Part shown: positions 985 to 24,905 of the stretch, one piece after another
How the letters are laid out: every line of letters starts with the position of its first letter
How positions within the stretch are numbered: the first letter of the stretch is position 1
IMG/VR virus record: IMGVR_UViG_3300021375_000149
Span: 1-25,193 of that record
DNA length: 25,193 nt
DNA from: a virus
Direction: 5' to 3' (one strand)
Notes under the pieces: model-generated
Seen by the model: only the letters and a program-made list of their open reading frames with translations
The model's database searches: none
Told to the model about the DNA's origin: nothing
Translations under genes and position numbers: made by a program

Positions 985-2352
985 TTACCCCATGTTTTCT
1001 ACATACTTCTTATGTAAAAGTTTCTTGGTTTCCAACTGCCCACTTGCTGCTTCTTTCTGTGCAATCACCCCATCTGGTGATGTTCCATCATACACTTCAA
1101 TGTAACCTGTATTAGTATCCATCTTACAAGGAAATGTGATTCCATCTTGTCCAAATCTGTTTTTCATAACATGAGCTCTTGCAGTATTATTCAATTTATC
1201 TTTTGATTTTCTACTCCAACTCATAATGAAATCTGCATTCATTACTTTTGCATATGAATCTGCAATCTTATCTGCTTCGATAACTTCAGAATCTATTGCT
1301 GAACGATTGGTTTGGGATGCAGTCCAAATTGGAATTTCCAATTCACCACCCATACCACGCAAATCGATATAAACTCCTCCTTGTTCTTGATAAGTAGAGT
1401 CAACAGACTTACTAGAATTGGAGAGAAGTAAATCAGCATAATCTACAATGATAAGGTCGGGCTTGTTACCAAGTGTAGTCATCTTTTCAATGTGTTGTTG
1501 TAACTTTTTTACATTAACACCCTTTGGTGGAAAGTACTTAATAAGTAATTTTCCTTTAAGATTAGTGATTTTACCTTTTACTTCTTCTTGTTTATCTCTT
1601 AAATCTGCTGATGGTATCTGAGTAAATACAGTATCATATCTTGCACCAACATAGTGTTCCGATAATTCCATACTATAATGTACTACACTCAAACCATTTC
1701 GTACAGCCTCTGCACCAAGTGCAGTAAGTATCCAAGTTTTTCCAACACCCGAAGGTGCTACTACTACTCCTAATTCACCTGGTCCTAATCCACCATCCAT
1801 TAAATCATTGATAGGTTCCCATCGAGTTGGAACAGTTGAACGTTTTAAATCTTCCATACGTTCATCATAATCTAAAACATAATCCATACCCAAGTTAGTT
1901 TCGTTACCAACTTTCATTGCAGCATCTACCAAATCTTTGATTCTATCATAAGAACCAGCTTGTAGTAAATCAACTGAACGTAGGATTACTCCTTTAAGAT
2001 TTTGATTTATACAGAAATCCCTAAACTCATTCTTTATATAATCTAAATCTACATTACCAATTTGTGTATGAACGTGCTTCAGTTGGTCAACAACTGTTTT
2101 CTTTAGAATATCATTATCAACTTTTGATAATTCTGATTTGAATACATCAAGTGTAGGCGGTTTTCTGTACTCGTTATGATACTCAAGTATCTCAGATATA
2201 ATCCACTTGTTAGCATCGTTCTCAAAGAACTTAGGAGTGGTTATTTCACCGATTGTATCGAGGAACTTGTTATCAGTAAGAAGTGCAGATACTACTTTTG
2301 ATTGAAATGATTGCCCGTATTTCGATAAGGTATCTACTTTTTGTTCTTGCAT
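985..2352 (-). CDS. 41: Replicative DNA helicase, DnaB/gp41 family
   Basis: Hexameric 5'-3' helicase that unwinds the replication fork on the lagging strand using ATP. The 455 residues match the size of DnaB-type phage helicases such as T4 gp41. An N-terminal helical domain (about 1-165) precedes the RecA-like motor. The motor shows Walker A APSGVGKT at 199-206, the H1a glutamate in SMEL (E229), Walker B IIVDYAD at 301-307, the sensor segment TASQTNR at 344-350, and the arginine-finger region KNRFGQDG at 397-404. The ATG at 2352 lies about 20 nt after the -7 element of its own promoter, so it may be expressed apart from the clamp operon. No primase (gp61-like) gene is next to it and no primase domain is fused. 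Assignment is secure. Confidence 0.95.
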   Translation of the reverse strand: MQEQKVDTLSKYGQSFQSKVVSALLTDNKFLDTIGEITTPKFFENDANKWIISEILEYHNEYRKPPTLDVFKSELSKVDNDILKKTVVDQLKHVHTQIGNVDLDYIKNEFRDFCINQNLKGVILRSVDLLQAGSYDRIKDLVDAAMKVGNETNLGMDYVLDYDERMEDLKRSTVPTRWEPINDLMDGGLGPGELGVVVAPSGVGKTWILTALGAEAVRNGLSVVHYSMELSEHYVGARYDTVFTQIPSADLRDKQEEVKGKITNLKGKLLIKYFPPKGVNVKKLQQHIEKMTTLGNKPDLIIVDYADLLLSNSSKSVDSTYQEQGGVYIDLRGMGGELEIPIWTASQTNRSAIDSEVIEADKIADSYAKVMNADFIMSWSRKSKDKLNNTARAHVMKNRFGQDGITFPCKMDTNTGYIEVYDGTSPDGVIAQKEAASGQLETKKLLHKKYVENMG

Positions 2353-8084: not shown

Positions 8085-9209
8085 TTATTTAAGTTTTTGA
8101 TTTAATTTAACAATCATTTTAGCTTCATTATCTGATAATTCTTTAGCTCTTTCAATACTTCTAAATTCTTGTGCGAATCTAAATATATCATCATCTAACA
8201 TTTTATCTAAGTAATCAAAGAATTCTGTTTTCATTTTAAAGAACATACCATTTGGGTCAATTTCTTTATAACAATCCGATTCTTGCCATATCATTGGAGT
8301 ACCATTCATCATACAATCAGTACCACTAACACTCCAACCATAATTGGTTTGCCTCATCTGTACACCAACTTTACATTGTTGTAACCTCTGATAATATTCA
8401 TGTTTAGGTGATTTGGAGTTATCAATCCAAGTTTCAGGCGATTTACCAGTTAATTGTGGAACCCAAACAGTAAAATCATCTCTTCTCTTTCTGTATTCTC
8501 TCATCAATTCTATAAATCGAGGGTAACCTTTGTATGCAGCTGCCCTATGATTGAATACAATTATATTTCGTTTTTCAGATGATGGTTTATCAACTATTAA
8601 TTTATTAGGTAATCCTAAATTCCAAACAGTAAGAATATCATCTAACTTTTTTACGAAATTATCATTGAATATATCTTTAGCTTGTTCTAATATTCTACTC
8701 TTCTGGTCTTGTGTATTAACATAACAAGTATCCATCTGAGATACACCTAATAATTCTATTGGTAACCATAACCACTTAGCTTTACCTGGTCTTCTATCAA
8801 CACCATTAGCTGTTTTAGATTCCCACCAATGACAATAACCTATAATTTTGGTATCGATATTATTTTTATATCTACCAACTTGAGGCCAATCAGGTAAATG
8901 AGAATATATAACATCATATTCAACATCTTTCATTAACTTAATAAAATCAGGTGGAAATGCTCTTTGATTCATCATATCACCTGAAAATGGAAGGATGTGT
9001 TGTTTTACATTTTCTAAGTTTAGTTTCTTAACGGGTTTTGGTAAGATTACATTCCAAAAGAAATCACCAACATTATCTAATGCAATAATGTGGTTGTATA
9101 ATACATCTACAAATGAATCCTTTTCGATGTTAGAAGCATTGGTGATATTAGGTATCACCAATACTTTTCTAGCATCTTTGTAATCAACTTTTACATTCCA
9201 AAAACTCAT
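8085..9209 (-). CDS. GT-B type glycosyltransferase (GT4-like)
   Basis: 374 aa. The N-terminal half has alternating strands and helices (VLVIPNITN 16-24, YDVIYSHLPDWPQVGRY 98-114, KIIGYCHWWE 121-130). The C-terminal half starts with IIVFNHRAAAYKGYPRF (216-232), the strand-loop pattern that opens the nucleotide-sugar domain of GT4 enzymes, and has GWSVSGTDCMMNGTPMI (291-307), in the place of the E-x7-E donor-binding region. It should transfer a sugar from a nucleotide donor; the acceptor is unknown. It lies between the DUF262-HNH gene (TAATG overlap) and the polymerase, which makes a DNA-base glycosyltransferase plausible, since T4 alpha- and beta-glucosyltransferases are also GT-B; host-surface or virion targets are alternatives. 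No transmembrane segment or signal peptide is present. Confidence 0.72.
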   Translation of the reverse strand: MSFWNVKVDYKDARKVLVIPNITNASNIEKDSFVDVLYNHIIALDNVGDFFWNVILPKPVKKLNLENVKQHILPFSGDMMNQRAFPPDFIKLMKDVEYDVIYSHLPDWPQVGRYKNNIDTKIIGYCHWWESKTANGVDRRPGKAKWLWLPIELLGVSQMDTCYVNTQDQKSRILEQAKDIFNDNFVKKLDDILTVWNLGLPNKLIVDKPSSEKRNIIVFNHRAAAYKGYPRFIELMREYRKRRDDFTVWVPQLTGKSPETWIDNSKSPKHEYYQRLQQCKVGVQMRQTNYGWSVSGTDCMMNGTPMIWQESDCYKEIDPNGMFFKMKTEFFDYLDKMLDDDIFRFAQEFRSIERAKELSDNEAKMIVKLNQKLK

Positions 9210-10801
9210 TAAGCTACTAATTGTTTTTGTTTAAACGATTCACACCATTTAGAAAAATCTTCACTACTCATAGTTGATTTTTTTCTGTTAACTTCATGTG
9301 TGGTAACTATTAGATTATGGTATTCAGTAACACCACCTGCCTTAATTCCTTTACTTCTTGGAATTTTGTGGTCTCCAACCAAAACTTTAATCTTATCCTT
9401 CAATGATACTCCAGTAAAAGGACAAATCCAATCTTGTTCTTTAGCCTTTCTCATAATATCATCCTTCTTAAATGATTTTCTTGGGTCTAATTCTACAACA
9501 CCCCATTGTTCAAGTTCATCAACTTTATCTAAAACTTTAACAATGGTTTCAAGTGCGTTTTTATTTTTACCATTAAATGAGGCAGATATTGGTCCCATTT
9601 GTTTTCCATTATACTGAGTTTCATTCATATATAGTTTGTTAGTCTCACAATTCCAATCATCATAAATTTGTAAAAACTTTTCTACATAAACAGATTCAAT
9701 CATATTTTCATATTGTTGAAACATTTCGTAACCATAGTGAGTTAGAATCAAACTAAACATAGATGTTAGCTTATTTCTTCTATCATTCGGAAATATTTTT
9801 ATGACCTTAGATGAAAAATCAATCAATGGTTTTATTTCTTTTTGATATTCACTTTTCCATTTTGTTTCATTTGAAAAAATACCATTTTCTTGCTCATCTT
9901 TAACCCATTGTGTATGTTTAGGTTGAGATATACCATTTTTCCAACCATTGTAATACATAAAAATTAACTGAGAAACCCATTCGTCTACTTCCATTCTTCC
10001 AGATAAATTTATCTTTGGCATGTATGTCAAAAATTCTTTTTTAGAATCTGATTTAGACCTGTGAAGGAAGTGTGTAGATTTGTGTGAAGATTCGTAGGGT
10101 CTTGCTAATTCTCTAACATAAGATGAAAAGTGCCCTCTAACAGCGTTTCTAATTTCTTGTGCTTTCATATCGTTAACATTATTTAAAACATTAACAAATA
10201 AATCAGCAGTTTCATCATCAGATATATTATCATACCAAAAGCAATTGATTTGATAATCCATAAGTAATGAATGTATAGCTGAGTATTTAACTCTCAATTC
10301 TTCAAAAGATTTACCACTTATATCAACACCATTTACTGGTGGTATGTTTCCAACAACAAACTCACCATTTACAAAATCTATTGGAGAGGATGCTCTTTGC
10401 CTTCCATCAATATTTTCAATTTCAATATGAGTTACACCATTTGTTTCGTGTCTAACGATTCTTAAATGTAGAGGTGGAATTTTTTTGAATCCGTTTGAGA
10501 AAATAGTTTCCATAATGGCTTGCTTCCATTCAGTAGATGCAACTTTTTCTCTTTGATATTCTCTAGCCCCATGATTAAAAGATACTCCAGTTTGGGGTTG
10601 GGAAAGAAAATCAATTGATACTTTACCATCAAAAGAAATCGATTCATTGGTTTTGATAGTATTAACATAACTTAGAATTTCACTTGAAGTTACTGTTGGT
10701 TGTTGTGTTCTTATTTCATCTAAAGTTTTTAGATAAAATTCTTCGTAATGTGTAGGTTGGCTACTATTGTTCACCAAATCTACGTTTTTATTATTTGTCA
10801 T
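9209..10801 (-). CDS. DUF262 (ParB-like fold) protein with C-terminal HNH nuclease domain
   Basis: 530 aa. The N-terminal domain carries IDGRQR (131-136), matching the DGQQR-type signature of DUF262/ParB-like domains, followed by FVNVLNNVNDMKAQEIRNAV (202-221), the N-x-x-x-x-x-x-x-E-I segment usual after it. A helical middle follows. The C-terminus has CPFTG (460-464), VGDHKIPRSKGIKAGG (475-490) with the D477-H478 pair, HNLIVT (495-500) and N505, an HNH/beta-beta-alpha-metal nuclease. DUF262-HNH architecture is shared with GmrSD-type (type IV) enzymes that cut modified DNA, and with other conflict proteins. Here it could attack host or rival phage DNA. It has its own promoter (10908-10938) and a leader with two inverted repeats, so it looks separately controlled; translation is coupled to the glycosyltransferase gene. 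Confidence 0.8.
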   Translation of the reverse strand: MTNNKNVDLVNNSSQPTHYEEFYLKTLDEIRTQQPTVTSSEILSYVNTIKTNESISFDGKVSIDFLSQPQTGVSFNHGAREYQREKVASTEWKQAIMETIFSNGFKKIPPLHLRIVRHETNGVTHIEIENIDGRQRASSPIDFVNGEFVVGNIPPVNGVDISGKSFEELRVKYSAIHSLLMDYQINCFWYDNISDDETADLFVNVLNNVNDMKAQEIRNAVRGHFSSYVRELARPYESSHKSTHFLHRSKSDSKKEFLTYMPKINLSGRMEVDEWVSQLIFMYYNGWKNGISQPKHTQWVKDEQENGIFSNETKWKSEYQKEIKPLIDFSSKVIKIFPNDRRNKLTSMFSLILTHYGYEMFQQYENMIESVYVEKFLQIYDDWNCETNKLYMNETQYNGKQMGPISASFNGKNKNALETIVKVLDKVDELEQWGVVELDPRKSFKKDDIMRKAKEQDWICPFTGVSLKDKIKVLVGDHKIPRSKGIKAGGVTEYHNLIVTTHEVNRKKSTMSSEDFSKWCESFKQKQLVA

Positions 10802-10944: not shown

Positions 10945-11739
10945 TTACCAAAAATTTACTTTATTTTCTGCTTCGATAGTTTTATAGTGTTCTATCTTTG
11001 GTAAATAATCTTCTAAGTTCTTTGGATAAGGATAAACTTTGTGTTTCAATTTTGATTTCAACTTCTTAGTTTCTCCTTTAGTTTGACCTAATATCTGAAT
11101 GTATCTATTCTTAGGTGCTTCTTTCTTTCTCCAAAATTCTTTATAACCATCTTTACCAACTGCCTCTTTTAGTTTTTCAATATTATGTGAACCCCATTTG
11201 GAAAATACAGTTCTTGAATGTATCCACTTATAAGGGTCTTTAGTTAATGATATACCAAAGTTTGGCATCAGTTGTATTTGTGATGTATCTTGGAATAACC
11301 AATTCGTTGCTTGGTAGATTCCTCCAAGATGTCCTTGTTCTGAATCAGAATAAGAAATCAACATCTTTATATTAGGTGCATTTTCTTTTAACCACTTAAA
11401 CGATTGCCCCATTGAGTATGATTCTACATTAGAACCGTAACCATCATGTATAAAGAGACGTGTGAGTTCTAAACACTCATCTTTACCCAATCCATCAACT
11501 ACTGAGGTTACTGCTGACCTACCTACGGGATAACCATAAATAAGACACCCTATGAGTTGTTCTGTGTTACCCAACACATCTTTGGTATCGGATTCATAGA
11601 ATACACCAAGAGCATATCTACACATTGAAAATGCGTGTGTATAATGATACTTTACAATCATATCTTTACCAGCTGCTTTACTGATTTCTCTGATTGTAAT
11701 TTTGGATGTATCTACATAATGTTTACCTTCCTCTTTCAT
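10945..11739 (-). CDS. Mom-like GNAT-fold DNA modification protein
   Basis: 264 aa. The central part reads CLELTRLFIHDGYGSNVESY (88-107), then a segment through MLISYSDSEQGHLGGIYQATNW (about 126-147). This order, E-L-[TS]-R-L / G-x-N-x-E-S / hydrophobic-S-Y-[SA]-D / G-H-x-G-x-I-Y-Q-A-x-N, is the pattern of Mom-related proteins, which belong to the GNAT acyltransferase fold; phage Mu Mom turns adenine in DNA into a carbamoylmethyl derivative. The YHYTHAF and YALGVFYE segments near the N-terminus also fit. The gene begins with an ATGA overlap with the helix-turn-helix gene, and is followed by the promoter of the DUF262-HNH gene. Likely function: base modification of phage DNA that protects it from nucleases. 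The exact chemistry cannot be inferred. Confidence 0.68.
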   Translation of the reverse strand: MKEEGKHYVDTSKITIREISKAAGKDMIVKYHYTHAFSMCRYALGVFYESDTKDVLGNTEQLIGCLIYGYPVGRSAVTSVVDGLGKDECLELTRLFIHDGYGSNVESYSMGQSFKWLKENAPNIKMLISYSDSEQGHLGGIYQATNWLFQDTSQIQLMPNFGISLTKDPYKWIHSRTVFSKWGSHNIEKLKEAVGKDGYKEFWRKKEAPKNRYIQILGQTKGETKKLKSKLKHKVYPYPKNLEDYLPKIEHYKTIEAENKVNFW

Positions 11740-11939
11740 AAACTACCACTCCAAAATTCATTTAGATGTTGCCAAGTTTTATTTTTAACAATCTTAACTA
11801 CGTTGGCAGGTGATACTTTATTATTACGAGCTATAACTCTTATGTTACGATGTCCCATTCTCCAAAGTTTTCTGATATCTAAAACTTGTTCATCAGTTAA
11901 CTTTGCCGATGGATGTGTTTGTCCTCTTCGTATTGGCAT
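11736..11939 (-). CDS. Small helix-turn-helix DNA-binding protein
   Basis: 67 aa from ATG 11939. The pattern HPSAKLTDEQVLDIRKLW (9-26), then RNIRVIARNNKVSPANV, then KIVKNKTWQHL (51-61) is the helix-turn-helix module (KLT.eqv..Ir.l...G.....iA..~.Vs...v..I..~.tW) commonly found at the C-terminus of phage HNH homing endonucleases. Here it stands alone with no nuclease domain. It overlaps the exonuclease stop by one base (TAATG) and the Mom-like start by four (ATGA), so it is firmly built into the operon. It may be a regulator, a DNA-targeting partner of the Mom-like enzyme, or the relic of a homing nuclease. A longer frame from TTG 11978 would overlap the exonuclease and is less likely. Confidence 0.7.
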   Translation of the reverse strand: MPIRRGQTHPSAKLTDEQVLDIRKLWRMGHRNIRVIARNNKVSPANVVKIVKNKTWQHLNEFWSGSL

Positions 11940-12994
11940 TAATCTGTAATTAAATTTCCAAAGGTTGTTTTTAACCAATCATTGATATCACCAAATGCAC
12001 CAGTTACTTTATATTTTAAAATAACTTTCATAAAATCCATTTTGTTTAATGGAGTTATAGGTTCATTAAATCTATCTAAGGTATTCATTTTAATAGTACC
12101 ACTAATATCAACATCATCTAATTGCATCAATTCTCTATTAAGTAAAATTTGATTTTTAGATTCTATGATATCTTTGTATATTTTAATCTTTCCTTTAGTT
12201 TCATCTATCTTTTCTTCAGCCAACCTTAGTAAATCATCAACTTCTAATTTTACATCTTCTGTAATTTCAGGAAATCTCTTTACTACTGTTTTTATACCAC
12301 ATCCATATACACCAGGAATATTATCTGATTTATCACCATCCAATACTCTGTATAATAAAAGATTCTTTGATTCTATACCAAATTCTTCTTTTACCATAGA
12401 TTTGTTGTACATTTTCTTTTTGGTAGGTGACCAAACAATGGTTGTATCATCAACTAATTGAAGGAAATCTTTATCAGTTGACATAATCACTGCTTGTTCA
12501 TCTTCTTTTAAAAGTGTAGTAGAGATATAAGCCATGATATCATCGGCTTCAACACCATCATATATCATAGTTGTAAGAGGAAGTTTATCTAACATTTCGT
12601 TTAACCAAACGAACTGTCTTTTCATAGATTCTCTTTCATCCTCATCGTTCATCATATCAGCGTATGCTCGATTTACTCTAAGTTTGTTCTTATCTCGTTG
12701 TGCTTTATATCCACTAAATTTCTTTTTACGAGAAGTAGAACCACCCTTTCCATCAAATACAACAACAACACGAGTCGGTTGAGTTTGTCTGATTGCATAC
12801 CCTATTGATTTAAGTACACCTGTTACTCCTGCAACATGGTCTCCATTATCATTCATAGTTGGTATTGATGACCAACATCTGATAAAGGTATTTAACCCAT
12901 CGATAATAAGTACACGAGAATTCTTGTGTTTATCGATATTTTGGGTTCTATCAGTTTCAACTGACTCTAAAATGTTCTTGTATAATTGCTTCAT
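11939..12994 (-). CDS. rnh: 5'-3' exonuclease / RNase H (FEN family)
   Basis: 351 aa, near T4 RNase H (305 aa) and the PolI 5'-nuclease domain. Acidic metal-binding residues typical of the family are visible: D32 (LIIDGLN), D81 (VVFDGKGG), EADD (149-152), and STDKD (172-176). The helix-3-turn-helix DNA-binding motif LDGDKSDNIPGVYGCGIKT spans 218-236. It should remove RNA primers and 5' flaps from lagging-strand fragments and process recombination intermediates. The ATG at 12994 overlaps the stop of the preceding 76-aa gene (ATGA), and its stop overlaps the next start (TAATG), so it is translated within the SSB-RecA operon. Confidence 0.92.
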   Translation of the reverse strand: MKQLYKNILESVETDRTQNIDKHKNSRVLIIDGLNTFIRCWSSIPTMNDNGDHVAGVTGVLKSIGYAIRQTQPTRVVVVFDGKGGSTSRKKKFSGYKAQRDKNKLRVNRAYADMMNDEDERESMKRQFVWLNEMLDKLPLTTMIYDGVEADDIMAYISTTLLKEDEQAVIMSTDKDFLQLVDDTTIVWSPTKKKMYNKSMVKEEFGIESKNLLLYRVLDGDKSDNIPGVYGCGIKTVVKRFPEITEDVKLEVDDLLRLAEEKIDETKGKIKIYKDIIESKNQILLNRELMQLDDVDISGTIKMNTLDRFNEPITPLNKMDFMKVILKYKVTGAFGDINDWLKTTFGNLITD

Positions 12995-13222: not shown

Positions 13223-14350
13223 TTATTCTGGTATTAAATTAGGGTCATGTACTACTGAATCAATATCCTTGGTATTGGTATCTGATTTATATTGTAAGAT
13301 TTGTACTTCACATATCTTTTTATAAATCTGTTCTCTAATTTCTTCTCTTTCTTCCATAATATCTATGAAATCTTTAGATTGAAATTTAAGTTCTTCACCA
13401 GTATCAGTATCAATATAAGTGTACCATGCACCCGCTTGTTTTACTAATTTATTATCTTTCATTACCTTTAACCACGAACCGTAGTTATCGATACCTCTAT
13501 CGAAGTAGATTTCAAAGTCAGTTGAACGTAATGGAGGACCCATTCTATTCTTAACTACTTGACATCTTACTTTCATACCAACAATCTTATCATTACCACC
13601 AATCTTCATTTTGATTTGACCAGCACCCTTCAATCTCAATCTTACAGAGGCATGGAAAGCAAGAGCTTTACCACCCGAAGTAGTCCATGGGTCACCGAAC
13701 GGCATAGCGTTCATCTTTTGTCTTAATTGGTTTGTGTAAACTAATAGAATTTTCTGTCTACCAATCATGTTGGTTATTTTCCTCATCGCTTTCGAGATGA
13801 TGATTGCTTTATCAGTAGCGTAACCATCTTTACCATAATCAGATGCAAGTTCAGCGGATGTTGATGCTGCTGCAACTGAATCTGTTACGATAGTTACTAA
13901 TCTATCTTTTGAAGTTTCTCGAACCTTTTCAATAATTGTTTCAGTCATATCAAAGATTTGTTCAACTGAATCTGCTGATACATAAAGAAGTTTAGAAACA
14001 TCCACACCGATAGCTTCTAAAAATTCTCTACTTACTGCAGTTTCAGTATCAATCAATACTGCAACACCACCTTGCTTTTGTGTTTCTGCAAGGAGGTGAG
14101 CTGATACCAATGATTTACCTGATTGTTCGAGACCTGTTATTTCAACGATTCTACCAACTGGCAATCCACCATAAGGGCGGTTAGAAATTGCTACATCTAA
14201 CATAGCACATCCAGTCGATACCCATCCATCTACATTTGTAGGTGCACTGTCATCATCGAGGAAGAATGCAACTTTGTTATCTTTAGCTTGTTTGTTAAGT
14301 TCACCCGCCAGAATATCTGCCAAGTCTACTTCTTGTTTCTTTTTTGCCAT
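13223..14350 (-). CDS. uvsX: RecA/UvsX-type recombinase
   Basis: ATP-dependent strand-exchange protein for recombination-dependent replication and repair, 375 aa. Walker A is GLEQSGKS (73-80), Walker B VTIVTDSVAA (152-161). Loop 2 begins TNQLRQK (206-212) and continues MPFGDPWTTSGGKAL (216-230), then HASVRLRL. The TNQ..., TTSGG.AL...ASVRL pattern is nearer to bacterial RecA than to T4 UvsX, as is common in marine T4-like phages. The basic N-terminus (MAKKKQE) and the acidic C-terminus are also usual. It follows the single-stranded DNA-binding protein by 10 nt, so the filament-forming proteins are made together. The identity as a RecA-family recombinase is secure; only the symbol is a convention. 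Confidence 0.94.
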   Translation of the reverse strand: MAKKKQEVDLADILAGELNKQAKDNKVAFFLDDDSAPTNVDGWVSTGCAMLDVAISNRPYGGLPVGRIVEITGLEQSGKSLVSAHLLAETQKQGGVAVLIDTETAVSREFLEAIGVDVSKLLYVSADSVEQIFDMTETIIEKVRETSKDRLVTIVTDSVAAASTSAELASDYGKDGYATDKAIIISKAMRKITNMIGRQKILLVYTNQLRQKMNAMPFGDPWTTSGGKALAFHASVRLRLKGAGQIKMKIGGNDKIVGMKVRCQVVKNRMGPPLRSTDFEIYFDRGIDNYGSWLKVMKDNKLVKQAGAWYTYIDTDTGEELKFQSKDFIDIMEEREEIREQIYKKICEVQILQYKSDTNTKDIDSVVHDPNLIPE

Positions 14351-14360
14351 TTAATTTGGT

Positions 14361-15182
14361 TTAGTTGTTGAATAAGTCATCAAATGCTGCTGCTACATCA
14401 TCGGTTTTCTTTTCTGATGTTGTAGGAGCCGCTGCTACTGGAGCAGGTGTTTTAGCCTCTGCTTGTGCAGCTGGTTTAGATGGAGTAGATAAAACCTCTT
14501 GAGATGCTGAACTTTGTTCACCTTCTGCTGTTGGGTTTAACCATCCTTCTAATACTGATTTTAATTCATCATAAGATAATTCAGAATATAAATCTGTAAT
14601 TTCAGTTTGATTTTCTAAGAAAGAAGTTGCATTTTTAGCATCTTCTGAAACTGCTGTTTCACTTGGTTTTACTCTAATAGTAGTAGTTGGATAAGTAGTT
14701 CCAGCTTCTTCTGCTGATTTATACTCAATTGTTAAATCTCTACCACTTGTTGGGTCAGTAATATCACCATAATCTGGATCAGCAATGTATCCAAGAATTT
14801 CTTGATATACAGTTTTACCAAATCCCCAAAATCTTACTCCTTCACCTTCTTCACCTCTTACAACAACAGGTACGAAAGTTCTCAACTTAGGCTCCATAGC
14901 CTTTGCTGCTTTCCAATCTTCTTTATCTCCCATTCTTTTTAGTTTATCCGCAAACTCTACAATAGGGTCTGGTCTACCAAATGATTGTGGTGATAAATAA
15001 GTTTTGTTGTTAATGTTGTAGTGAAAATACAATTCAATGAAAGGATTATCTTGATTGAATTTGTAAGGAACGATTCTTACTTGATGTTTTCCTGGAGTTG
15101 GTTTCCAAAGTGCATCTGATTTACGTTGTGTGTTTTGTAGTTTGTTCAGTCTACCTCTGATTGCGTTAATGTCTAAAGCCAT
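14361..15182 (-). CDS. 32: Single-stranded DNA-binding protein (gp32-like), no zinc-binding cysteines
   Basis: 273 aa. An N-terminal segment (1-25) rich in basic residues fits the self-assembly arm. The core follows: WKPTPGKHQVRIVPYKFN (26-43), ELYFHY (50-55), the FGRPDPIVEF segment (68-77), KLRTFVPVVVRGEE, and VRFWGFGKTVYQEIL. A low-complexity Ala/Pro/Ser linker (about 215-258) leads to the acidic tip DDVAAAFDDLFNN, the tail that in T4 gp32 contacts other replication proteins. The protein has no cysteine at all, so the zinc site of T4 gp32 is missing. It is the first gene of the operon with recA, exonuclease and the Mom-like gene, after a promoter at 15241-15272. A short palindrome TTAATTATTAA (15201-15211) lies in its leader. 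Confidence 0.9.
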   Translation of the reverse strand: MALDINAIRGRLNKLQNTQRKSDALWKPTPGKHQVRIVPYKFNQDNPFIELYFHYNINNKTYLSPQSFGRPDPIVEFADKLKRMGDKEDWKAAKAMEPKLRTFVPVVVRGEEGEGVRFWGFGKTVYQEILGYIADPDYGDITDPTSGRDLTIEYKSAEEAGTTYPTTTIRVKPSETAVSEDAKNATSFLENQTEITDLYSELSYDELKSVLEGWLNPTAEGEQSSASQEVLSTPSKPAAQAEAKTPAPVAAAPTTSEKKTDDVAAAFDDLFNN

Positions 15183-16720: not shown

Positions 16721-17122
16721 TTATTTTTTGTTAAATTCTATTACCTCGAAGATTCGTGTAGAAATTTTCTTTGTGCCTTCTACATTGGTAACAATGATTG
16801 AGTTTTTAAATTTATCCCAATCGATAGTAAATGATTTATCTAATACACCACCATTCTCTTCTTTTACCAATTCGTTTAGAGCGTTTATGGTATAAAGAGT
16901 ATTTGATTGCTTCTTTCTATGTACCAAAATAGTATCCCCTAAAGGTTTATCTGGTTTAATTGAAGTATCAATATTATATGTAACAAAAAGCTCTTCCAAA
17001 TTACCCTTATTCTGAAGAACATAAATATAGTTATAAACTATATGATAAGTTTCTCTAATAAGTTGAAGGGTTTTTTGAAGTTCCTCTTTAGTCGTGAATG
17101 TACAGAGTAACTGTGTTTGCAT
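16721..17122 (-). CDS. Conserved uncharacterised phage protein, 133 aa
   Basis: Function unknown. It begins MQTQLLCTFTTKEELQKTL, followed by VYNYIYVLQNKGNLEELFVT (29-48), HRKKQSNTLYTINALNELV (68-86), and a C-terminal strand-rich part with FTIDWDKFKNSIIVTN (98-113). I recall similar proteins, with the TFTTK start and the HRKK..NTLYTINALN segment, in cyanophage-type T4 relatives but cannot name a role. It is soluble with no signal peptide. A purine-rich AGGAAG lies 5-10 nt before the ATG. It appears to be transcribed on its own or from the gene upstream. Confidence 0.72.
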   Translation of the reverse strand: MQTQLLCTFTTKEELQKTLQLIRETYHIVYNYIYVLQNKGNLEELFVTYNIDTSIKPDKPLGDTILVHRKKQSNTLYTINALNELVKEENGGVLDKSFTIDWDKFKNSIIVTNVEGTKKISTRIFEVIEFNKK

Positions 17123-17220: not shown

Positions 17221-19212
17221 CTATTTGGAGTTAGATGAGTAAACTTTTTGAGTTGCATCTTTTAATGTAGCCGCAAATCGTTTATCTAATTTCATTTCAA
17301 ATTTAATTTGACCACCATATCCTACACCATCTTCTCGTACACTAACCTCTGCAATTGGAATTACATCACTACCTACTTCAGCTTGATATCCTAAGAATGG
17401 TGGTGGGCCTGGCTCAGATGTTAGTTTTTCTTTTATATCATCATATTTAGATGTTCCAAATATTTCTATCATTGTATCTTTATCTAAAGACATATCACCA
17501 ATTGCCATAGTCTCTTCACCTTCAGATACTGCTTTTAATGGAAACTCTTCCCGTATAGATGTCATCATTCCTTCTTTCATTTTAGGATTTTCAGAAAGTG
17601 ATTTTATAGATGCTTCTATAAATTTAGTTTGCTTTTCCGATGCATCTCTTAAATATTGTTGAGCTACGGTGTTGCCACCCTCATTAGGACCTTTATCATT
17701 TCTCTTACCCCAACTTGGCCAATCAGCAATAGATTTTATAGATGCCATAACAACAGATGAACTTTTTCTGTAATCACCCTTTCCATTTTGTAAGTTATCT
17801 AAAGCTTCATTAAAATCTAACCCTTTGGATTTAAATACCTTTTCTAATTCTTTAGCTTTTTCAGGATTATCACTTAATAAGGATTCTATATCAGATTTTA
17901 TACTCTCACCGGTGGCTGCTATACTTTCTCTTTGATTTTCTTTATAAACACTTTGGTTTATCTCATCTGGCAAATCATCACCTAACCAATCTTTAAATTG
18001 ACCAGCTCCTGAGTTTAAGAAGTTTACATCTTTAGATTTTTTAAGTGAAATTTCATCTAAAACTTCCTCACCATTTGGTTTTTTAACTCTAAGATACATA
18101 TCGGTTGAAAATCCTTTATTTTCTTTGTAATTTTCAATTCCCATAGCTTCAGCCTCATCTTTAGCATCCCATGAACTAGCTACAATAGTAGTTCCGTTAC
18201 CATATTGTTTTTCTAATCTATCAATAATTGCTTTTCTACTTTGTGTAGCGGCTTTTACCCAACTCTTATCTATAATACGAGAACCTGGATTATCAACAAA
18301 TTTTCCTTTTGGGTTTTTCTTTTTAAATGTAGTTGGGTGGTTTTCTAATAATTCCTTCTCATGTTTAAGTAATGCTTCAGAAAATTCATTCCACTCATCA
18401 TCACTCATTGTAGAACCCATCATAGTCATCAATTCTCCAGCTTGTGCTGATATCTTACCAGCCCCTCCTTCAATATCAGAGAAATGGGTCCATTTTGCAG
18501 TTTCTGTGGTTATTCTTGAATTTACCATTCGTTCAAGTACCTTAACATATCTTTTTGGAAATTTTGGATTTTTAATAAATCCATCTAACTTTAAAGATTC
18601 AGGTGGAGTTGGATTAGCACTTTTTTCATTTCTTTTATTAAAATCATCATCAGTTGGTTCCAAATCCATTTGATAATTTTCCGATTCAAGTGGGTTTGTA
18701 TCTACTAATGTTTTATTTTTAGAACCTGTATATCCATTACCCTTCGTAGAATCACTTGATTGTTCATCAGATGAATCATTTTGTTTAGCTACCCTATCTG
18801 CTCTCTCTTTTTCTTTCTTAGCGTAATCAGAGTTAGCTTTTACATCTTTACCAAGTTCTTTTTCTTCTTTTTCCTCACCACCCGTTTCATCTTCTTTTGG
18901 TATATATTTACCACTTGGTGTTTTTGTAAACTTTTCAAAATCACCTTTAGGATTTGCTTTCCACTTATCGTAATCTTGTGCTTTTACATATCCACTACCA
19001 CCAGTATTCTTATACTTTTCATCTTCAGCTGTTTTTTCATCATCTTCATTAGTTAAAAATTCAAAGATAATTTCTTTTGCTTCAAACTCATTCCATTCTG
19101 AAAGAATTTCTGACATCATAGATTGTTGGTCTTTATCGTATATATCAACGATACCAACTCTCATGTTGAGTTCTCTTAATAAGTTATCTATTAACTGAGT
19201 ATAATCCATCAT
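17221..19212 (-). CDS. Large uncharacterised phage protein with a possible nuclease-like core
   Basis: 663 aa. The N-terminal 55 residues (IDNLLRELNMRVGIVDIYD) form a compact helical domain. Residues 56-205 are low-complexity, rich in Lys, Glu, Ser and Asp, and likely disordered. The folded part from about 207 includes GFSTDMYLRV (367-376) and LDEISLKKSKDVNFLN (385-400). D371 followed by D386/E387 and K391 on paired strands recalls PD-(D/E)xK nucleases, but spacing is not standard and this is a guess. A second ordered segment ends with GQIKFEMKLDKRF (634-646). Similar proteins seem to occur in marine T4-like phages as unknown or virion proteins. The start is ATG 19212 or the adjacent ATG 19209. 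It follows the lipoprotein nuclease gene by 14 nt. Confidence 0.75.
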   Translation of the reverse strand: MMDYTQLIDNLLRELNMRVGIVDIYDKDQQSMMSEILSEWNEFEAKEIIFEFLTNEDDEKTAEDEKYKNTGGSGYVKAQDYDKWKANPKGDFEKFTKTPSGKYIPKEDETGGEEKEEKELGKDVKANSDYAKKEKERADRVAKQNDSSDEQSSDSTKGNGYTGSKNKTLVDTNPLESENYQMDLEPTDDDFNKRNEKSANPTPPESLKLDGFIKNPKFPKRYVKVLERMVNSRITTETAKWTHFSDIEGGAGKISAQAGELMTMMGSTMSDDEWNEFSEALLKHEKELLENHPTTFKKKNPKGKFVDNPGSRIIDKSWVKAATQSRKAIIDRLEKQYGNGTTIVASSWDAKDEAEAMGIENYKENKGFSTDMYLRVKKPNGEEVLDEISLKKSKDVNFLNSGAGQFKDWLGDDLPDEINQSVYKENQRESIAATGESIKSDIESLLSDNPEKAKELEKVFKSKGLDFNEALDNLQNGKGDYRKSSSVVMASIKSIADWPSWGKRNDKGPNEGGNTVAQQYLRDASEKQTKFIEASIKSLSENPKMKEGMMTSIREEFPLKAVSEGEETMAIGDMSLDKDTMIEIFGTSKYDDIKEKLTSEPGPPPFLGYQAEVGSDVIPIAEVSVREDGVGYGGQIKFEMKLDKRFAATLKDATQKVYSSNSK

Positions 19213-19226
19213 GTATAAATATAAGT

Positions 19227-19847
19227 TTATTTAGTTACTAAGTAATCTGTCCAATGTGTACCACTTGTATCTTCATTTGGAAATTCAAATACAATCTCTC
19301 TATCATCAAACTTTAATATCTTTTTGAATCCTTTTGGAATTGAAGCACCACCACTAACTTTTTGTGGAGTTTCATCAAATATAACTTCGATTCTTACATC
19401 AACTTGGTAAAAATTTGCTAAGTTTCTTTCAAATCCTTCTAAATGATTCCACACACCTCTATTAAGAGATTCATGTTGTAAAGCAGAATTAGCAAAGTTA
19501 AATGTAAGTTGTAACATTTCTTTAGTACAATTGAATGCTGCTGCTGGTGCCATATGTCCTTTATCCCATACGTTTGAATAATAATCATCATTATCTGATG
19601 TTAAAATACCTTCTGGTTTCCAAAAATCCATTGAACCTCTATCAACTCCTGGTAGTGGGCATTCAACTGTGTATTCAATCCAAATTGGTTGTTCTAATAT
19701 CTCATTATATTCTAGTTTGAATATTTCACTTTCTACGATTACCGATTCTCTTGGGTCTTGAACTTCGATTACTTCGTATGGAGGAGTGAATCCCTCACTT
19801 GTACAAGCCACTATTAATAGTGCAAGTAACGTAATAAATTTTTTCAT
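19227..19847 (-). CDS. DNA/RNA non-specific endonuclease (beta-beta-alpha-Me) with lipoprotein signal peptide
   Basis: 206 aa. The N-terminus MKKFITLLALLIVAC is a lipoprotein signal with lipobox IVAC, C15 being the lipidated residue, so the mature enzyme should sit in a membrane facing the periplasm or the surface. The catalytic motif DKGHMAPAAA (95-104) corresponds to DRGHxAP of the Serratia nuclease family, with H98 as general base. SLNRGVWNHLE (127-137) supplies the magnesium-binding asparagine (N129) and a conserved Glu (E137). The family cuts DNA and RNA without sequence preference. Export protects the phage's own genome and suggests activity on DNA outside the cytoplasm: entering rival DNA, released host DNA as nutrient, or extracellular DNA. 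C-T-S-E-G after the lipobox carries only one acidic residue, a weak match to Bacteroidota surface-export signals. Confidence 0.9.
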   Translation of the reverse strand: MKKFITLLALLIVACTSEGFTPPYEVIEVQDPRESVIVESEIFKLEYNEILEQPIWIEYTVECPLPGVDRGSMDFWKPEGILTSDNDDYYSNVWDKGHMAPAAAFNCTKEMLQLTFNFANSALQHESLNRGVWNHLEGFERNLANFYQVDVRIEVIFDETPQKVSGGASIPKGFKKILKFDDREIVFEFPNEDTSGTHWTDYLVTK

Positions 19848-19881: not shown

Positions 19882-21117
19882 TTAGATAATGTTTTTAGGA
19901 AGCTTTGGAAAAATCTCATCTAATAGACTATTTTTAGTCTTAACTGTTTCTAAAAAACAGCTTCGAATGTATTCTAACCATTCGTTTAATTTAGAGGTTA
20001 ACTCTTTCCATTTTACTTCATCATCCATTTGTATTCGTAACCAAGGCATTATATCAGTAATATCATCATATTCAGGTAATGGATATTCCGGTATATCATA
20101 TCCTAATAAATCAATTACTTTATGTATTTTTTGAATAGTTCTGTAATGTACATCTAAAAATAACTTACCTGCTAATATGTGACAGATTGTTTTTTCTGAG
20201 AAACATTGAGTCATTGGGTTTTCGTGTATAAGATTAACTTCAGCAAGTCCAAACATTTTCCACATACCTTCTTCCATATTATTTTTCATCCACTCACCGC
20301 CAAAATCTTCTATATTATACCCTCTTTTTTCTAATCTTTTAAGATTTGGGAATTTTAAAAATTCATTGTAATCTTTTTCATACTGATGTTTCCAAATGTA
20401 ATGATTAGAATCAGTAAATGAAGAGTATGTGATTAAAGTATCATTTTCATTTAAATCTTTTTTAATTCCATTAGCTATATATAATTTAGAATCATAAACT
20501 CTACGAACTGGATATAACAATTTATACTCATATTCAGTTTTTAATTTTAACCAATCATAGAAAAAATAATATTCTCGTGTAGCAGTTGTATCTGGAAATA
20601 TAAATGACATAAATGATTGTGAAAAGATATATTTAGTTCTATCCGGATTTGTAACATTATCATTGTAAAGATTTATATCTTCTTTAAGTAGCTTAGATAC
20701 ATCAATACCTTCTTCATCTAAATTAAATCCTTCCCAACTAATCCAAGATATATGTACGTTTTTTCTAACCTTGTATTTTAATCCATTTAAAAAAGGAATC
20801 CAATCATTTTTGAAACCTTCCATAGTTGGTAGAATAAACATTCTATCTGATGATAATCCATTTTGTAGTGAATTTATAGTAACATCAAAAATATGATGAG
20901 CTGATTCATCTTCCCAAAATCTATCATTTACAAATTTTATATCTAAATCAGTACCTTTGTACTTAGCTTTGATTGAGTGTATATTAGAATTCCAAATCTT
21001 TACTTGATATCTATTTTGCTCAGTTACAACAGGAACTTTAGTAGGGTCTACTTTTACTCCATGGAAAAAGTACCAAAATAACTCATAGGTATATTTGTGA
21101 TGAACGTATATTTTCAT
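19882..21117 (-). CDS. Tandem paralogue 3 of a large uncharacterised family (possible glycosyltransferase-like)
   Basis: 411 aa; the third and last of three adjacent homologous genes. Shared blocks: MKIYVHH.Y.YE.FWYFFHGV at the N-terminus (1-21), HISWISWEG (122-130), FMSFIFP...REYYFF (169-186), YPVRRVY (202-208), KRGYNIEDFGGEW (264-276), and FGLAEVNLIHE (289-299). SEKTICHILAGKLF (307-320) follows. The [ST]EK[TS]-x-x-HILA-x-KPFI block recalls the donor-binding TEK-type motif of GT10-like glycosyltransferases, but in this copy the usual K-P-F-I is K-L-F-L, so it may have drifted. There is no signal peptide or membrane segment. It begins with an ATGA overlap with paralogue 2. Substrate and function are unknown. 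Confidence 0.75.
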   Translation of the reverse strand: MKIYVHHKYTYELFWYFFHGVKVDPTKVPVVTEQNRYQVKIWNSNIHSIKAKYKGTDLDIKFVNDRFWEDESAHHIFDVTINSLQNGLSSDRMFILPTMEGFKNDWIPFLNGLKYKVRKNVHISWISWEGFNLDEEGIDVSKLLKEDINLYNDNVTNPDRTKYIFSQSFMSFIFPDTTATREYYFFYDWLKLKTEYEYKLLYPVRRVYDSKLYIANGIKKDLNENDTLITYSSFTDSNHYIWKHQYEKDYNEFLKFPNLKRLEKRGYNIEDFGGEWMKNNMEEGMWKMFGLAEVNLIHENPMTQCFSEKTICHILAGKLFLDVHYRTIQKIHKVIDLLGYDIPEYPLPEYDDITDIMPWLRIQMDDEVKWKELTSKLNEWLEYIRSCFLETVKTKNSLLDEIFPKLPKNII

Positions 21118-22352
21118 AAAATATTTTTTGTTGAATTCTGTTTAGATAATAGGTTATCTAAATATCCATTATGAGTATTCATAATTTCAAATAATGATTT
21201 TCTCATATAAGAAACATATTCTGTTATTTCATTCATAAGTATATTCCATTTAACATCATCTTTACTTACATTATTTAAATAGTATATTTTTTTCCACCAT
21301 CCCAAATCATCTAAGGGAAATGGTTTTATCTTGTAATTATATGTTTTTAAAATTTCACTATAAAAGTTTAATGTTTTTTTGTAAATAGGAATAAATGGTT
21401 TGTTGGCTAATATATGAGAGAATGTTTTTTCATTTATACCATATCCAATTGTAGATTCATGTAATAAATTAACTTCAGATATAGTTAATAATTTCCACAT
21501 AAATTCTTTCATATTATTATCATTATATTCAGCACCCCAATCTTTTAAATTATAACCTCGTTTGTTTATATAATTTTCATTACCAATTAATTCCATAATA
21601 GAAGTAAAGTACTTATCTGCATCTTTCTGTGTTCTCTCATCATCATTATAATTTGTAAATGATGATAATGTTACATTAAAAGCTGGATTATTAAATTTTT
21701 TAATTTCAGTTGCTACTTCAAACTTTTGTTTACTTAATCTTCTAATTGGATAATTTATTTTATATTTATAATCATTTTTGTATTTTAAATAATCTGCAAA
21801 AAAATAATATTCCCTTAACCCAATTGTATTTGGATATAAGAATGACCAAAGTATATGAGTAAACGATACTTTTTGATTATTTTCAATATGAGTTAATTCA
21901 TCCTTATATAATGTTATATTAGGATTTAATAATTTATTTAAAGTTGGGGTTATCTTATCATCACTCGTTTCCCAATCTATAAAAAATATACTTATTTTAT
22001 CTTTTAATAAATTTGCTCTTTTATTCATTAAAGGAATTATAGTATCATATAAATCGTTACCTATGTGCTCATTCCAACCTCTATCTGATATTTTTTTTAT
22101 CTCTAAGTGATGGATTGTATAATCCCATATATGATATCCATCGGTATTATTCCAATTTGAATCAAAACAAAATATACAAGTAAAATCTATATTTTTATAA
22201 GTAAACTTTATACTTACTTCCTCTCTTACTTTATTGTTTTTATTATACCGATTACTTTCAAACCATGTTGGGATTTCTTCTAATGGAGTTACTGCATGGA
22301 AGAAGTACCAAAAAAGTTCGTATGAATAATAATGATGAACATATATTTTCAT
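21114..22352 (-). CDS. Tandem paralogue 2 of the same family (possible glycosyltransferase-like)
   Basis: 412 aa. Homologous along its length with its neighbours: MKIYVHHYYSYELFWYFFHA (1-20), FFIDWE (123-128), SFLYPNTIGLREYYFFADYL (170-189), NYPIRRL (200-206), KRGYNLKDWGAEYNDNNM (264-281), SEVNLLHES (292-300), and INEKTFSHILANKPFIP (306-322). It keeps the full N-K-P-F-I block. The divergence between copies (length-changing gaps, many substitutions) shows the duplications are old, not recent. ATG 22352 overlaps the stop of paralogue 1 (ATGA), and its own stop overlaps the start of paralogue 3 the same way, so the three proteins are likely made together, possibly in similar amounts or as a complex. 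Confidence 0.75.
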   Translation of the reverse strand: MKIYVHHYYSYELFWYFFHAVTPLEEIPTWFESNRYNKNNKVREEVSIKFTYKNIDFTCIFCFDSNWNNTDGYHIWDYTIHHLEIKKISDRGWNEHIGNDLYDTIIPLMNKRANLLKDKISIFFIDWETSDDKITPTLNKLLNPNITLYKDELTHIENNQKVSFTHILWSFLYPNTIGLREYYFFADYLKYKNDYKYKINYPIRRLSKQKFEVATEIKKFNNPAFNVTLSSFTNYNDDERTQKDADKYFTSIMELIGNENYINKRGYNLKDWGAEYNDNNMKEFMWKLLTISEVNLLHESTIGYGINEKTFSHILANKPFIPIYKKTLNFYSEILKTYNYKIKPFPLDDLGWWKKIYYLNNVSKDDVKWNILMNEITEYVSYMRKSLFEIMNTHNGYLDNLLSKQNSTKNIL

Positions 22353-23650
22353 AATAGATTTTTATTTTTTTTAGCAATATCAGTTTTTAATAAAATTTCT
22401 AAAAAATCATTTTTATTATCAATCAAATCTAATATACTATTTCGTGTATTATCTACCCATTTTTTTAAACCAATTACTAATTCATTCCAACGTATATCAT
22501 CATTAGCAATTTCATTTATAGTATCTATACTATCTTCCAAAAATTCATATTTTAAGGGATAGTCTACTAATTTATATCCATTTGTAGTTAAAATACTATC
22601 ATAAAAAGTTATTGTACTATAAGAAGTAGGTATGAATGGTTTATTAGCTAAGATATGAGATACAGATTTTTCAGTAATACTAGATAATCCATGTTTATGC
22701 ACCGGAATATTATAAGTTCCATGTCGTATAGGTTCTTCAACATCATATTCTGGAATAATATTTACTTCTGCTATCCCAAACAACTTCCATAAGAATTCAG
22801 ATAAATTATTATCATTCCACTCACCACCCCAATCATCAATACCATATCCTCTTTTTTGGATATAGTTTTTTTCTGTTATTTTATCTTTTATTTTATTTCT
22901 AATTTTATCTGGAAATGGAGAATAATGTGGAGTCTCATGAAACGAAGAATGAGTTATATTAATATTTGAATTTTCAAGTTTTATAATTTTATTATATAAT
23001 CGTAGCTTGTGTCCATATATTCTCCTTATTGGAAAATTTATCTTATGAGTATAATCATTTTTATACTTTAATATATCTGCAAAAAAATAGTATTCTTTTA
23101 ATCCTAATGTATTTGGATATAAGAATGACATAAATATATTTGTAAATACACAATATTTGTGTTTGATATTTACATCGTTTTGTTCATCAACATAAATGTT
23201 TACATCTTTTGTAAGACCAACATCCATATTATGCTCATAATAAGGGTTATGTCCCTCCCAATCAATATAAAAGAAATGATATTTAACTTCATTTGATTTA
23301 GAAACATTATTTAGTAATGGGATGTATTCTTCATCTACTATTCTTCTGATTTTAGAATTAAAACCTCTATCTGATACTAAGTTTCTATCATATAAATCTA
23401 TACTATAATCTATGATGTGATGTCCTTTTAAGGAATGTTTATTACTTCCTACAAAAGTTATATCCAATTCAACGCCATTGTACTTACATTTTATGTTTAC
23501 ATCTTCATTTATAGGTGAAAACTTATTAAACATATTTTTTCGATTAGTATGTGTAATTACATCATTCAAATCAACTTCTACTCCATGAAAAAAATACCAA
23601 AATCTTTCATATGAATAATTGTGATGTACATAAATCTTAAACTTCTCCAT
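22349..23650 (-). CDS. Tandem paralogue 1 of the same family, with an insertion (possible glycosyltransferase-like)
   Basis: 433 aa from ATG 23650, chosen because MEKFKIYVHHNYSYERFWYF (1-20) then lines up with the N-termini of the other two copies; it overlaps the family A polymerase gene by 14 nt. An upstream ATG at 23686 would add 12 unrelated residues. Shared blocks: FYIDWEGH (127-134), MSFLYPNTLGLKEYYFFADI (174-193), NFPIRRIYG (205-213), KRGYGIDDWGGEWNDNNL (266-283), FGIAEVNIIPE (291-301), and ITEKSVSHILANKPFIP (325-341). About 20 extra residues (EEPIRHGTYNIPVHKHG and flanks, 305-324) lie just before the TEK block and are absent in the others, so this copy may recognise a different substrate. 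Confidence 0.75.
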   Translation of the reverse strand: MEKFKIYVHHNYSYERFWYFFHGVEVDLNDVITHTNRKNMFNKFSPINEDVNIKCKYNGVELDITFVGSNKHSLKGHHIIDYSIDLYDRNLVSDRGFNSKIRRIVDEEYIPLLNNVSKSNEVKYHFFYIDWEGHNPYYEHNMDVGLTKDVNIYVDEQNDVNIKHKYCVFTNIFMSFLYPNTLGLKEYYFFADILKYKNDYTHKINFPIRRIYGHKLRLYNKIIKLENSNINITHSSFHETPHYSPFPDKIRNKIKDKITEKNYIQKRGYGIDDWGGEWNDNNLSEFLWKLFGIAEVNIIPEYDVEEPIRHGTYNIPVHKHGLSSITEKSVSHILANKPFIPTSYSTITFYDSILTTNGYKLVDYPLKYEFLEDSIDTINEIANDDIRWNELVIGLKKWVDNTRNSILDLIDNKNDFLEILLKTDIAKKNKNLL

Positions 23651-24905
23651 AATTTTTACCCCAATCTGCTTTGACAGGAAATCCATAACTTTCGAGAACG
23701 GATTTAATCTTTTTAATAGTTTCTACCTCAGAATCATCAAATTCAAATAAGAATGAATCATAGGTATATAATATAGGTAGAGGTAACCCTTCTTTTTTCA
23801 ACTTATCCATTACCTCAATATTAAATTCAGTTTCAGTCGCTTGAAGTAGATAATTGAAGAACTTCTGTCCATTGGGTTGTTCAATCCATCCTAACGGTAT
23901 TTTTCTACCTTTAGGTGTTTGGATATACCCATTCTTGATTGCTTCTTCTTGCATCTTTCTAATGAACGTATCTACTTTATCAAAGAATGGTATTTTTCTA
24001 TCTTCATCGGATACTCCCCCATACAAGATTCTAAACGTTCTTCCTTTACTCTCATCATACGAACAACCATATTGGTCTGCTAACCATTGATGAACCGAAG
24101 TATCGGGTAATTTGTATTTAATCAACTTACCTATAATTCGTACATGATAGGCATCATAATCGAATTGTAAGAAAAGAGAATCATCGGAAGGTATAAAGGC
24201 TGCTCTTGAACCATCTTTCTTGTTAAGAGCAGAAAAGTTTACACCACCATGTCTATTCGAAGGTCTTGATGTAATCGTGTATGGATTGTACTCGGTATAA
24301 ACAACATTCCCTTGTTCGGTAGTGGCTATATGTTTTCTATTATCTTTCCATCTATCAATAAATTTTTCTGTATCGACCTTTATCCCACTTCGTTCGATAT
24401 CTGAGAGGAGAGGAATCATCGTTTCATCCACCCAATTGTTGGTATGTTTTATATCCCATTCACCAACAACCTCTCTTAGTACCTCACCCCACTTCATTAT
24501 AGGGATACTTTTACCCAAATCATCTCTTATACCCAAACGATAGTAAAAGTTCGTTAGAACCTCTAATTTGGATTGTATATCGTATATAGTGTTTTGTTCA
24601 AAGAATAACGAGGTTTGTACATCTTTTAGATTCTTTATTTCAATATCTGCTTGTAAGAACCCTTTTTTATTCCAAATCCATTTAGATTGAGTTGAAATGG
24701 ATAAATCCATTGTTAGCCTTTCACAATCATTATGATTGAATGGTAATATGAAATCCATATTTGGAAATCGGACATACAAAAATGACAACCCATTTGTCAT
24801 AGGATGTCTTTCCAAATCTTCCCAAATCGGAATAATCTTAGATTCTTCGTTATTCCAATATTCGAGAAATTGGTCTTTCTCTTTATTAGTTTCTACTATA
24901 ATCAT
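23637..24905 (-). CDS. Divergent short DNA polymerase, family A (PolI-like), no visible exonuclease
   Basis: 422 aa, much shorter than PolI (about 930) or T7 polymerase (704). The C-terminal part has family A features in order: TSRPS...GGVNFSALNKKDG (212-232) for primer-template contacts, motif A FDYDAYHVRII (248-258) with D249, motif B K287-x7-YG (295-296) in the form SKGRTFRILYGG, GYIQTPKGRKIPL (326-338), NYLLQATETEFNIEVM (351-366), and motif C TYDSF (381-385) with D383 in place of the usual HDE. Both catalytic aspartates are kept, but the arginine four residues before motif-B lysine is replaced by Tyr. The N-terminal 150 residues show no exonuclease motifs. It abuts the 71-aa gene (TAAATG). 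It may act in repair or gap filling beside the family B polymerase. Confidence 0.82.
   Translation of the reverse strand: MIIVETNKEKDQFLEYWNNEESKIIPIWEDLERHPMTNGLSFLYVRFPNMDFILPFNHNDCERLTMDLSISTQSKWIWNKKGFLQADIEIKNLKDVQTSLFFEQNTIYDIQSKLEVLTNFYYRLGIRDDLGKSIPIMKWGEVLREVVGEWDIKHTNNWVDETMIPLLSDIERSGIKVDTEKFIDRWKDNRKHIATTEQGNVVYTEYNPYTITSRPSNRHGGVNFSALNKKDGSRAAFIPSDDSLFLQFDYDAYHVRIIGKLIKYKLPDTSVHQWLADQYGCSYDESKGRTFRILYGGVSDEDRKIPFFDKVDTFIRKMQEEAIKNGYIQTPKGRKIPLGWIEQPNGQKFFNYLLQATETEFNIEVMDKLKKEGLPLPILYTYDSFLFEFDDSEVETIKKIKSVLESYGFPVKADWGKNYGEV

Follow-up and report, generated by a model that had tools for sequence, protein, structure and literature searches.

The described systems nearest in kind to the protein reported here are PolA2/APEX of Actinobacteria and the split Pol III of group 2.2 jumbo phages. 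PolA2/APEX is a second polymerase of family A whose 3'-5' exonuclease domain is vestigial and inactive, and it is thought to act as a low-fidelity accessory polymerase (PMC12926913). The group 2.2 jumbo phages encode, beside a T4-type family B replicase, a minimal second polymerase represented by a Pol III alpha of family C split into two genes, for which a role on one strand or in repair was suggested (PMC7824862). The pairing of gp43 with a second, minimal polymerase is therefore not without precedent, although the open literature shows no such case for family A. Within family A, the residue E710 (numbering of E. coli Pol I) has been called universally conserved and pairs with Y766 for nucleotide selection (PMC4882331). 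The residue R754 stabilises the gamma-phosphate of the dNTP and, in Taq, was reported not to tolerate mutation; a universal His-Asp dyad has been described for motif C (PMC8599892). We describe here a family of small family A-fold DNA polymerases (mini-PolA) of which no description was found in a search of the open literature.

The window analysed is a virus fragment of 25,193 bases (IMG/VR record IMGVR_UViG_3300021375_000149), whose features are collected in Table 1. A sequence-only reading had proposed that it encodes a second, minimal family A polymerase at 23637-24905 in addition to a complete gp43-type family B polymerase, and both proteins are borne out, the former by its predicted fold and motif mapping. 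The mini-PolA frame is real and runs from 24905 down to 23637 over 422 codons with zero stops; the gene thus lies on the minus strand, and the plus strand of the same interval contains stops throughout. The single sequence was matched by the Pfam model DNA_pol_A at 5.6e-7, under the curated cut-off, and by PHROG_17 (DNA polymerase) at 2e-17. These matches being weak, the family was assembled.

Table 1. Position of the mini-PolA gene, its motifs and associated genes in the window
Feature	Position	Strand	Evidence
Mini family A-fold DNA polymerase (mini-PolA), 422 aa	23637..24905	minus	ORF, Pfam, PHROG, family alignment, AF2, Foldseek, profile alignment
N-terminal ~150 aa, shrunken exonuclease-like domain, catalytic acids apparently lost	24456..24905	minus	AF2 strand/helix order; Foldseek; hand residue mapping
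Motif A, D249-R256 (DYDAYHVR): catalytic Asp; His where the steric-gate Glu stands	24138..24161	minus	Family and profile alignment
Motif B / O helix, Y283-G296: Lys, Phe, Tyr-Gly retained; Arg replaced by Tyr	24018..24059	minus	Family and profile alignment
Motif C, Y382-D383-S384	23754..23762	minus	Family and profile alignment
133-aa orphan protein, conserved neighbour of mini-PolA	16721..17122	minus	Synteny, co-occurrence, AF2
gp32-like single-strand DNA-binding protein	14361..15182	minus	Pfam gp32 4.4e-13; PHROG
UvsX/RecA-like recombinase	13223..14350	minus	PHROG/Pfam searches
Stand-alone 5'-3' exonuclease (flap nuclease type)	11939..12994	minus	PF02739 2.4e-33
gp43-type family B replicative DNA polymerase, 837 aa	5570..8083	minus	phrog_262 1.5e-183; Pfam DNA_pol_B 1.1e-37
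DnaB-like replicative helicase (gp41 type)	985..2352	minus	PHROG/Pfam searches

Scans of IMG/VR with three mini-PolA members as queries matched 141, 312 and 109 contigs, of which the best 80 of each were used, and a scan with the LR756508 copy as query recovered no further members. The family is present across hundreds of viral contigs of aquatic, T4-type phages. The sequences were sorted by query and identity, and not from a tree, into the window clade (W), a second marine clade (W2), the immuto (I) and Mel-JY01 (M) clades and LR756508, a huge uncultured phage. Among annotated phages, a copy covering most of the query was found in Flavobacterium phage immuto (4 records), Microcystis phage Mel-JY01, where it is annotated as "hypothetical protein", and LR756508; these three phages represent 6 of 50,697 records. 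The gp43-type polymerase is found in 2,545 records, including only two of these three phages. The earlier statement that T4-like phages typically carry the family B enzyme alone is thus correct for isolates; in environmental contigs, by contrast, mini-PolA occurs frequently. Pfam misses much of the family. A cellular origin or spread was rejected, a related contig being detected in only three of ~85,000 species genomes, all of them metagenome-assembled.

The conservation alignment contains 231 full-length sequences from four clades, in which identity to the window copy drops to 24-28%. The residues D249, D251, H254, Y283, K287, F291, Y295, G296, Q355, E358, T359, N362, Y380, Y382 and D383 are conserved in all of them. 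The dN/dS ratio of the window copy against the ten nearest relatives tested is comprised between 0.11 and 0.22, and the median for 128 close pairs is 0.08; judging from these ratios and alignments, the gene is under purifying selection as an enzyme. The pairwise divergence of mini-PolA tracks that of its neighbour genes (r 0.85-0.96). Between clades, mini-PolA is mostly more diverged than gp32 and uvsX, as expected of an accessory enzyme.

A model of mini-PolA was obtained with AlphaFold (AF2) from 54 family sequences (mean pLDDT 93, pTM 0.90). Foldseek retrieved Klenow, Bst and Pol theta at E ~1e-19 with TM values up to 0.70 on the query (2e-19 and 0.69-0.70 for the Klenow part of E. coli and Bst Pol I), and the alignments span the full Klenow length. 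The structural check proposed together with the sequence-only reading has therefore come out in favour of the family A fold, with palm, fingers and an exonuclease-like N-terminus as in Klenow. Residues were mapped by a profile-profile alignment of the family with E. coli Klenow and phage PolA. The motifs D249, K287-x7-Y295-G296 and Y382-D383-S384, which had been located correctly, correspond to D705, K758...Y766-G767 and H881-D882-E883. The alignment also pairs F291 with F762, R214 with R668, H272 with H734, N351 with N845 and Q355 with Q849, so that D705, D882, K758, F762, Y766, N845, Q849 and R668 are shared with Klenow. We infer from the fold match that D249 and D383 would lie in one active site. 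Besides the palm/fingers fold, mini-PolA possesses both catalytic Asp and the Lys, Phe and Tyr-Gly of the O helix (231/231 for these residues).

On the other hand, three signature residues of family A are each replaced in 231 of the 231 sequences: E710, the steric-gate Glu, by His (H254), R754 of motif B by Tyr (Y283) and H881 by Tyr (Y382), so that motif C reads Tyr-Asp in place of the His-Asp dyad. The loss of the motif-B arginine had been recognized from the sequence, but the replacements of E710 and H881 and the near absence of the thumb, which are the stronger departures, had been missed. Conversely, the residue at the position of E883 (S384), Ser or Ala in the family, had been counted among the features of a specialised or decaying enzyme, and it is not a sign of damage. 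The full-length Tt72 polymerase of a Thermus phage, an active family A enzyme with strong proofreading and, unlike mini-PolA, a Glu at the gate, has Ser at this position and its mutant S616A keeps 76% of the activity (PMC9324360); we consider the change harmless for this reason. As a measure of the thumb, we counted the residues that separate R668 from the conserved Glu corresponding to E541 of E. coli. W2 and M have 23 and W, I and LR756508 have 39-43, versus 127 in E. coli, and on these alignments very little of the thumb is left. A shortening is also seen in the fingers (38-45 residues from the Asp to the Lys, versus 53). By descent and fold mini-PolA is a branch of family A, without three signature residues and without a full thumb.

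Concerning the N-terminus, the strand order of the first 150 residues in the AF2 model matches that of an exonuclease domain. With residues mapped by hand, the position of the first catalytic acid (column 28 of the 231-sequence alignment) contains Ser, Trp, Thr or other non-acidic residues among the common ones, and that of the second (column 30) Asn, Asp or Ser for the most part, mainly Asn. The region looks like a 3'-5' exonuclease-like domain that has been reduced in size and inactivated and, as far as the alignment indicates, proofreading has very likely been lost. The claim that mini-PolA has no exonuclease domain is right for the proofreading acids, apparently lost in contrast to Klenow, but a vestigial domain of about 150 residues remains. 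Also unlike Pol I, the 5' nuclease is a separate gene. Mini-PolA thus resembles PolA2/APEX, but without its clamp-binding QxxLF motif, which lies in a loop in the actinobacterial enzymes. A sequence of this type (QxxLFF; QTSLFF, residues 97-102) is conserved in only part of the window clade and sits in a helix, and was rejected as a clamp-binding motif.

Most of the large related contigs also encode a replicative polymerase. A family B enzyme accompanies mini-PolA in the large contigs of W, W2, M and LR756508. The immuto clade has no family B enzyme but a full-length family A polymerase of ~780 aa beside mini-PolA, which eliminates mini-PolA as a sole or replicative polymerase even where gp43 is missing. 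The two contigs without a replicative polymerase match (G004 and G018) are both fragments. As these genomes encode their replicative polymerase, of family B or A, in another gene, mini-PolA is not the replicase in any lineage examined. In LR756508.1 (259363-267281) and in one contig (L245), the gp43-type polymerase lies in separate pieces or frames, which possibly correspond to inteins, introns or split genes.

The order mini-PolA, 133-aa protein, gp32, recombinase, 5' nuclease and helicase recurs across clades, interrupted by insertions such as the glycosyltransferase-like genes of the window. These are three tandem paralogues of 411-445 aa (19882-23686, minus strand; KIYVHH...YSYE.FWYFFH), glycosyltransferase-like by eye and without a Pfam match. 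A DNA/RNA non-specific endonuclease with a lipoprotein-like signal (LLALLIVACTS; 19227-19847, minus strand) is often found near mini-PolA in the window clade. Some proteins encoded near mini-PolA share an N-terminal start motif (...EWS/EW...), perhaps for targeting (window 17221-19212, contigs L185 11231-11410 and L002 11415-12488). Elsewhere in the window, a DruA-like protein (Pfam 3.9e-21; 3584-4810, minus strand) is flanked by the presumed clamp gene and the gene for the clamp loader, and a 530-aa protein (9209-10801, minus strand) has an HNH/endonuclease VII-like C-terminus and a weak match to an IscB model.

The 133-aa orphan was detected in 201 mini-PolA loci and occurs in the same six phage records as mini-PolA and in none besides. 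As the same lineages carry both, this co-occurrence is no more than suggestive of a partnership of the two proteins. Its AF2 model has a pLDDT of 92.7; Pfam, PHROG and NCBIfam gave weak matches only, and the comparison with PDB folds returned nothing at E<=0.001.

On balance we favour mini-PolA as an accessory, distributive gap-filling or lesion-tolerant polymerase with a family A fold. Given its conservation in hundreds of viral contigs, mini-PolA probably functions in repair or gap filling rather than being a gene in decay. Without proofreading and with little grip on the duplex, it would add few nucleotides per binding event, filling short gaps or crossing lesions that result from recombination, from damage or from the processing of Okazaki fragments, and would then leave ligation or further synthesis to other enzymes. 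Its retention on DNA may be ensured by the 133-aa neighbour. That His is fixed where the sugar gate lies suggests a changed discrimination of sugars or mismatches and hence a lower fidelity. Against such an accessory role, the activity could, with R754 lost, be very weak or of another kind. In the Mel-JY01 and immuto clades the gene comes after several probable virion genes in a block, and a late function or one in the virion may also be considered. Tentatively, we propose a wider possibility, in which this new branch of family A, with its little thumb, fixed His gate, Tyr for the O-helix Arg and Tyr-Asp motif C, would form an obligate pair with the 133-aa orphan. The latter would supply the lost grip on DNA, in a gap-filling or recombination-repair step that is kept when the replicase swaps between families B and A.

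A dedicated translesion or error-prone polymerase, a phage counterpart of the Y-family or DnaE2 that tolerates damaged templates, is a rather unlikely explanation. The absence of proofreading, the open, thumbless active site and the fixation of the fidelity residue E710 as His all point to it, and in H. pylori and B. subtilis lesion bypass involves family A enzymes that lack active proofreading (PMC12926913). Nevertheless, neither a lesion-specific insert nor a damage-response signal was seen, and the neighbours are recombination genes instead of a known damage operon. Gap filling and translesion synthesis are not separated by the sequence alone.

The steric-gate Glu, replaced by His throughout the family, could be taken to indicate an enzyme that admits rNTPs and makes or extends primers, and short products would fit the reduction of the thumb. 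This is most unlikely. A DnaG-type primase is encoded in 10 of the 13 genomes of the family that were tested, and the remaining three are partial contigs, so that priming is covered in the large genomes and mini-PolA is not needed as a primase substitute.

The window also encodes a Mom-like DNA modification protein (10945-11739, minus strand; Pfam 1.2e-44), which hints at a modified adenine in the phage. The best PDB sequence match of mini-PolA is DpoZ of the 2-aminoadenine vibriophage phiVC8 (7pbk), in which motif C also has Ser for Glu. A polymerase for modified nucleotides comparable to DpoZ is nonetheless highly improbable. DpoZ is full-length, with a Klenow-like architecture including a thumb, an active exonuclease, a structurally conserved Arg (PMC8599892) and a Glu gate, the last seen in the alignment; the NCBIfam DpoZ model gives mini-PolA 16.9 bits for a cut-off of 500, and the genome here should be copied by another polymerase.

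Finally, a degenerate or non-catalytic relic, at most a structural protein, is scarcely credible despite the altered universal residues and the mostly missing thumb, as all 231 sequences, at identities as low as about 25%, keep both catalytic Asp and the Lys, Phe, Tyr and Gln, dN/dS is low (0.11-0.22) and the altered residues are fixed too. Together with the position kept across four clades, this rules out the decaying gene that had been one of the two earlier options; the other, a specialised enzyme, fits mini-PolA.

In a widespread aquatic phage family, three family A residues called universal or non-mutable have each been swapped for one fixed residue. If active, mini-PolA would show how little polymerase suffices for catalysis and would provide a natural test of the roles of E710, R754 and the thumb. 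It also constitutes a further small enzyme for the study of gap filling or lesion bypass. For the T4-type phages carrying it, a second polymerase is kept whichever replicase is in use.
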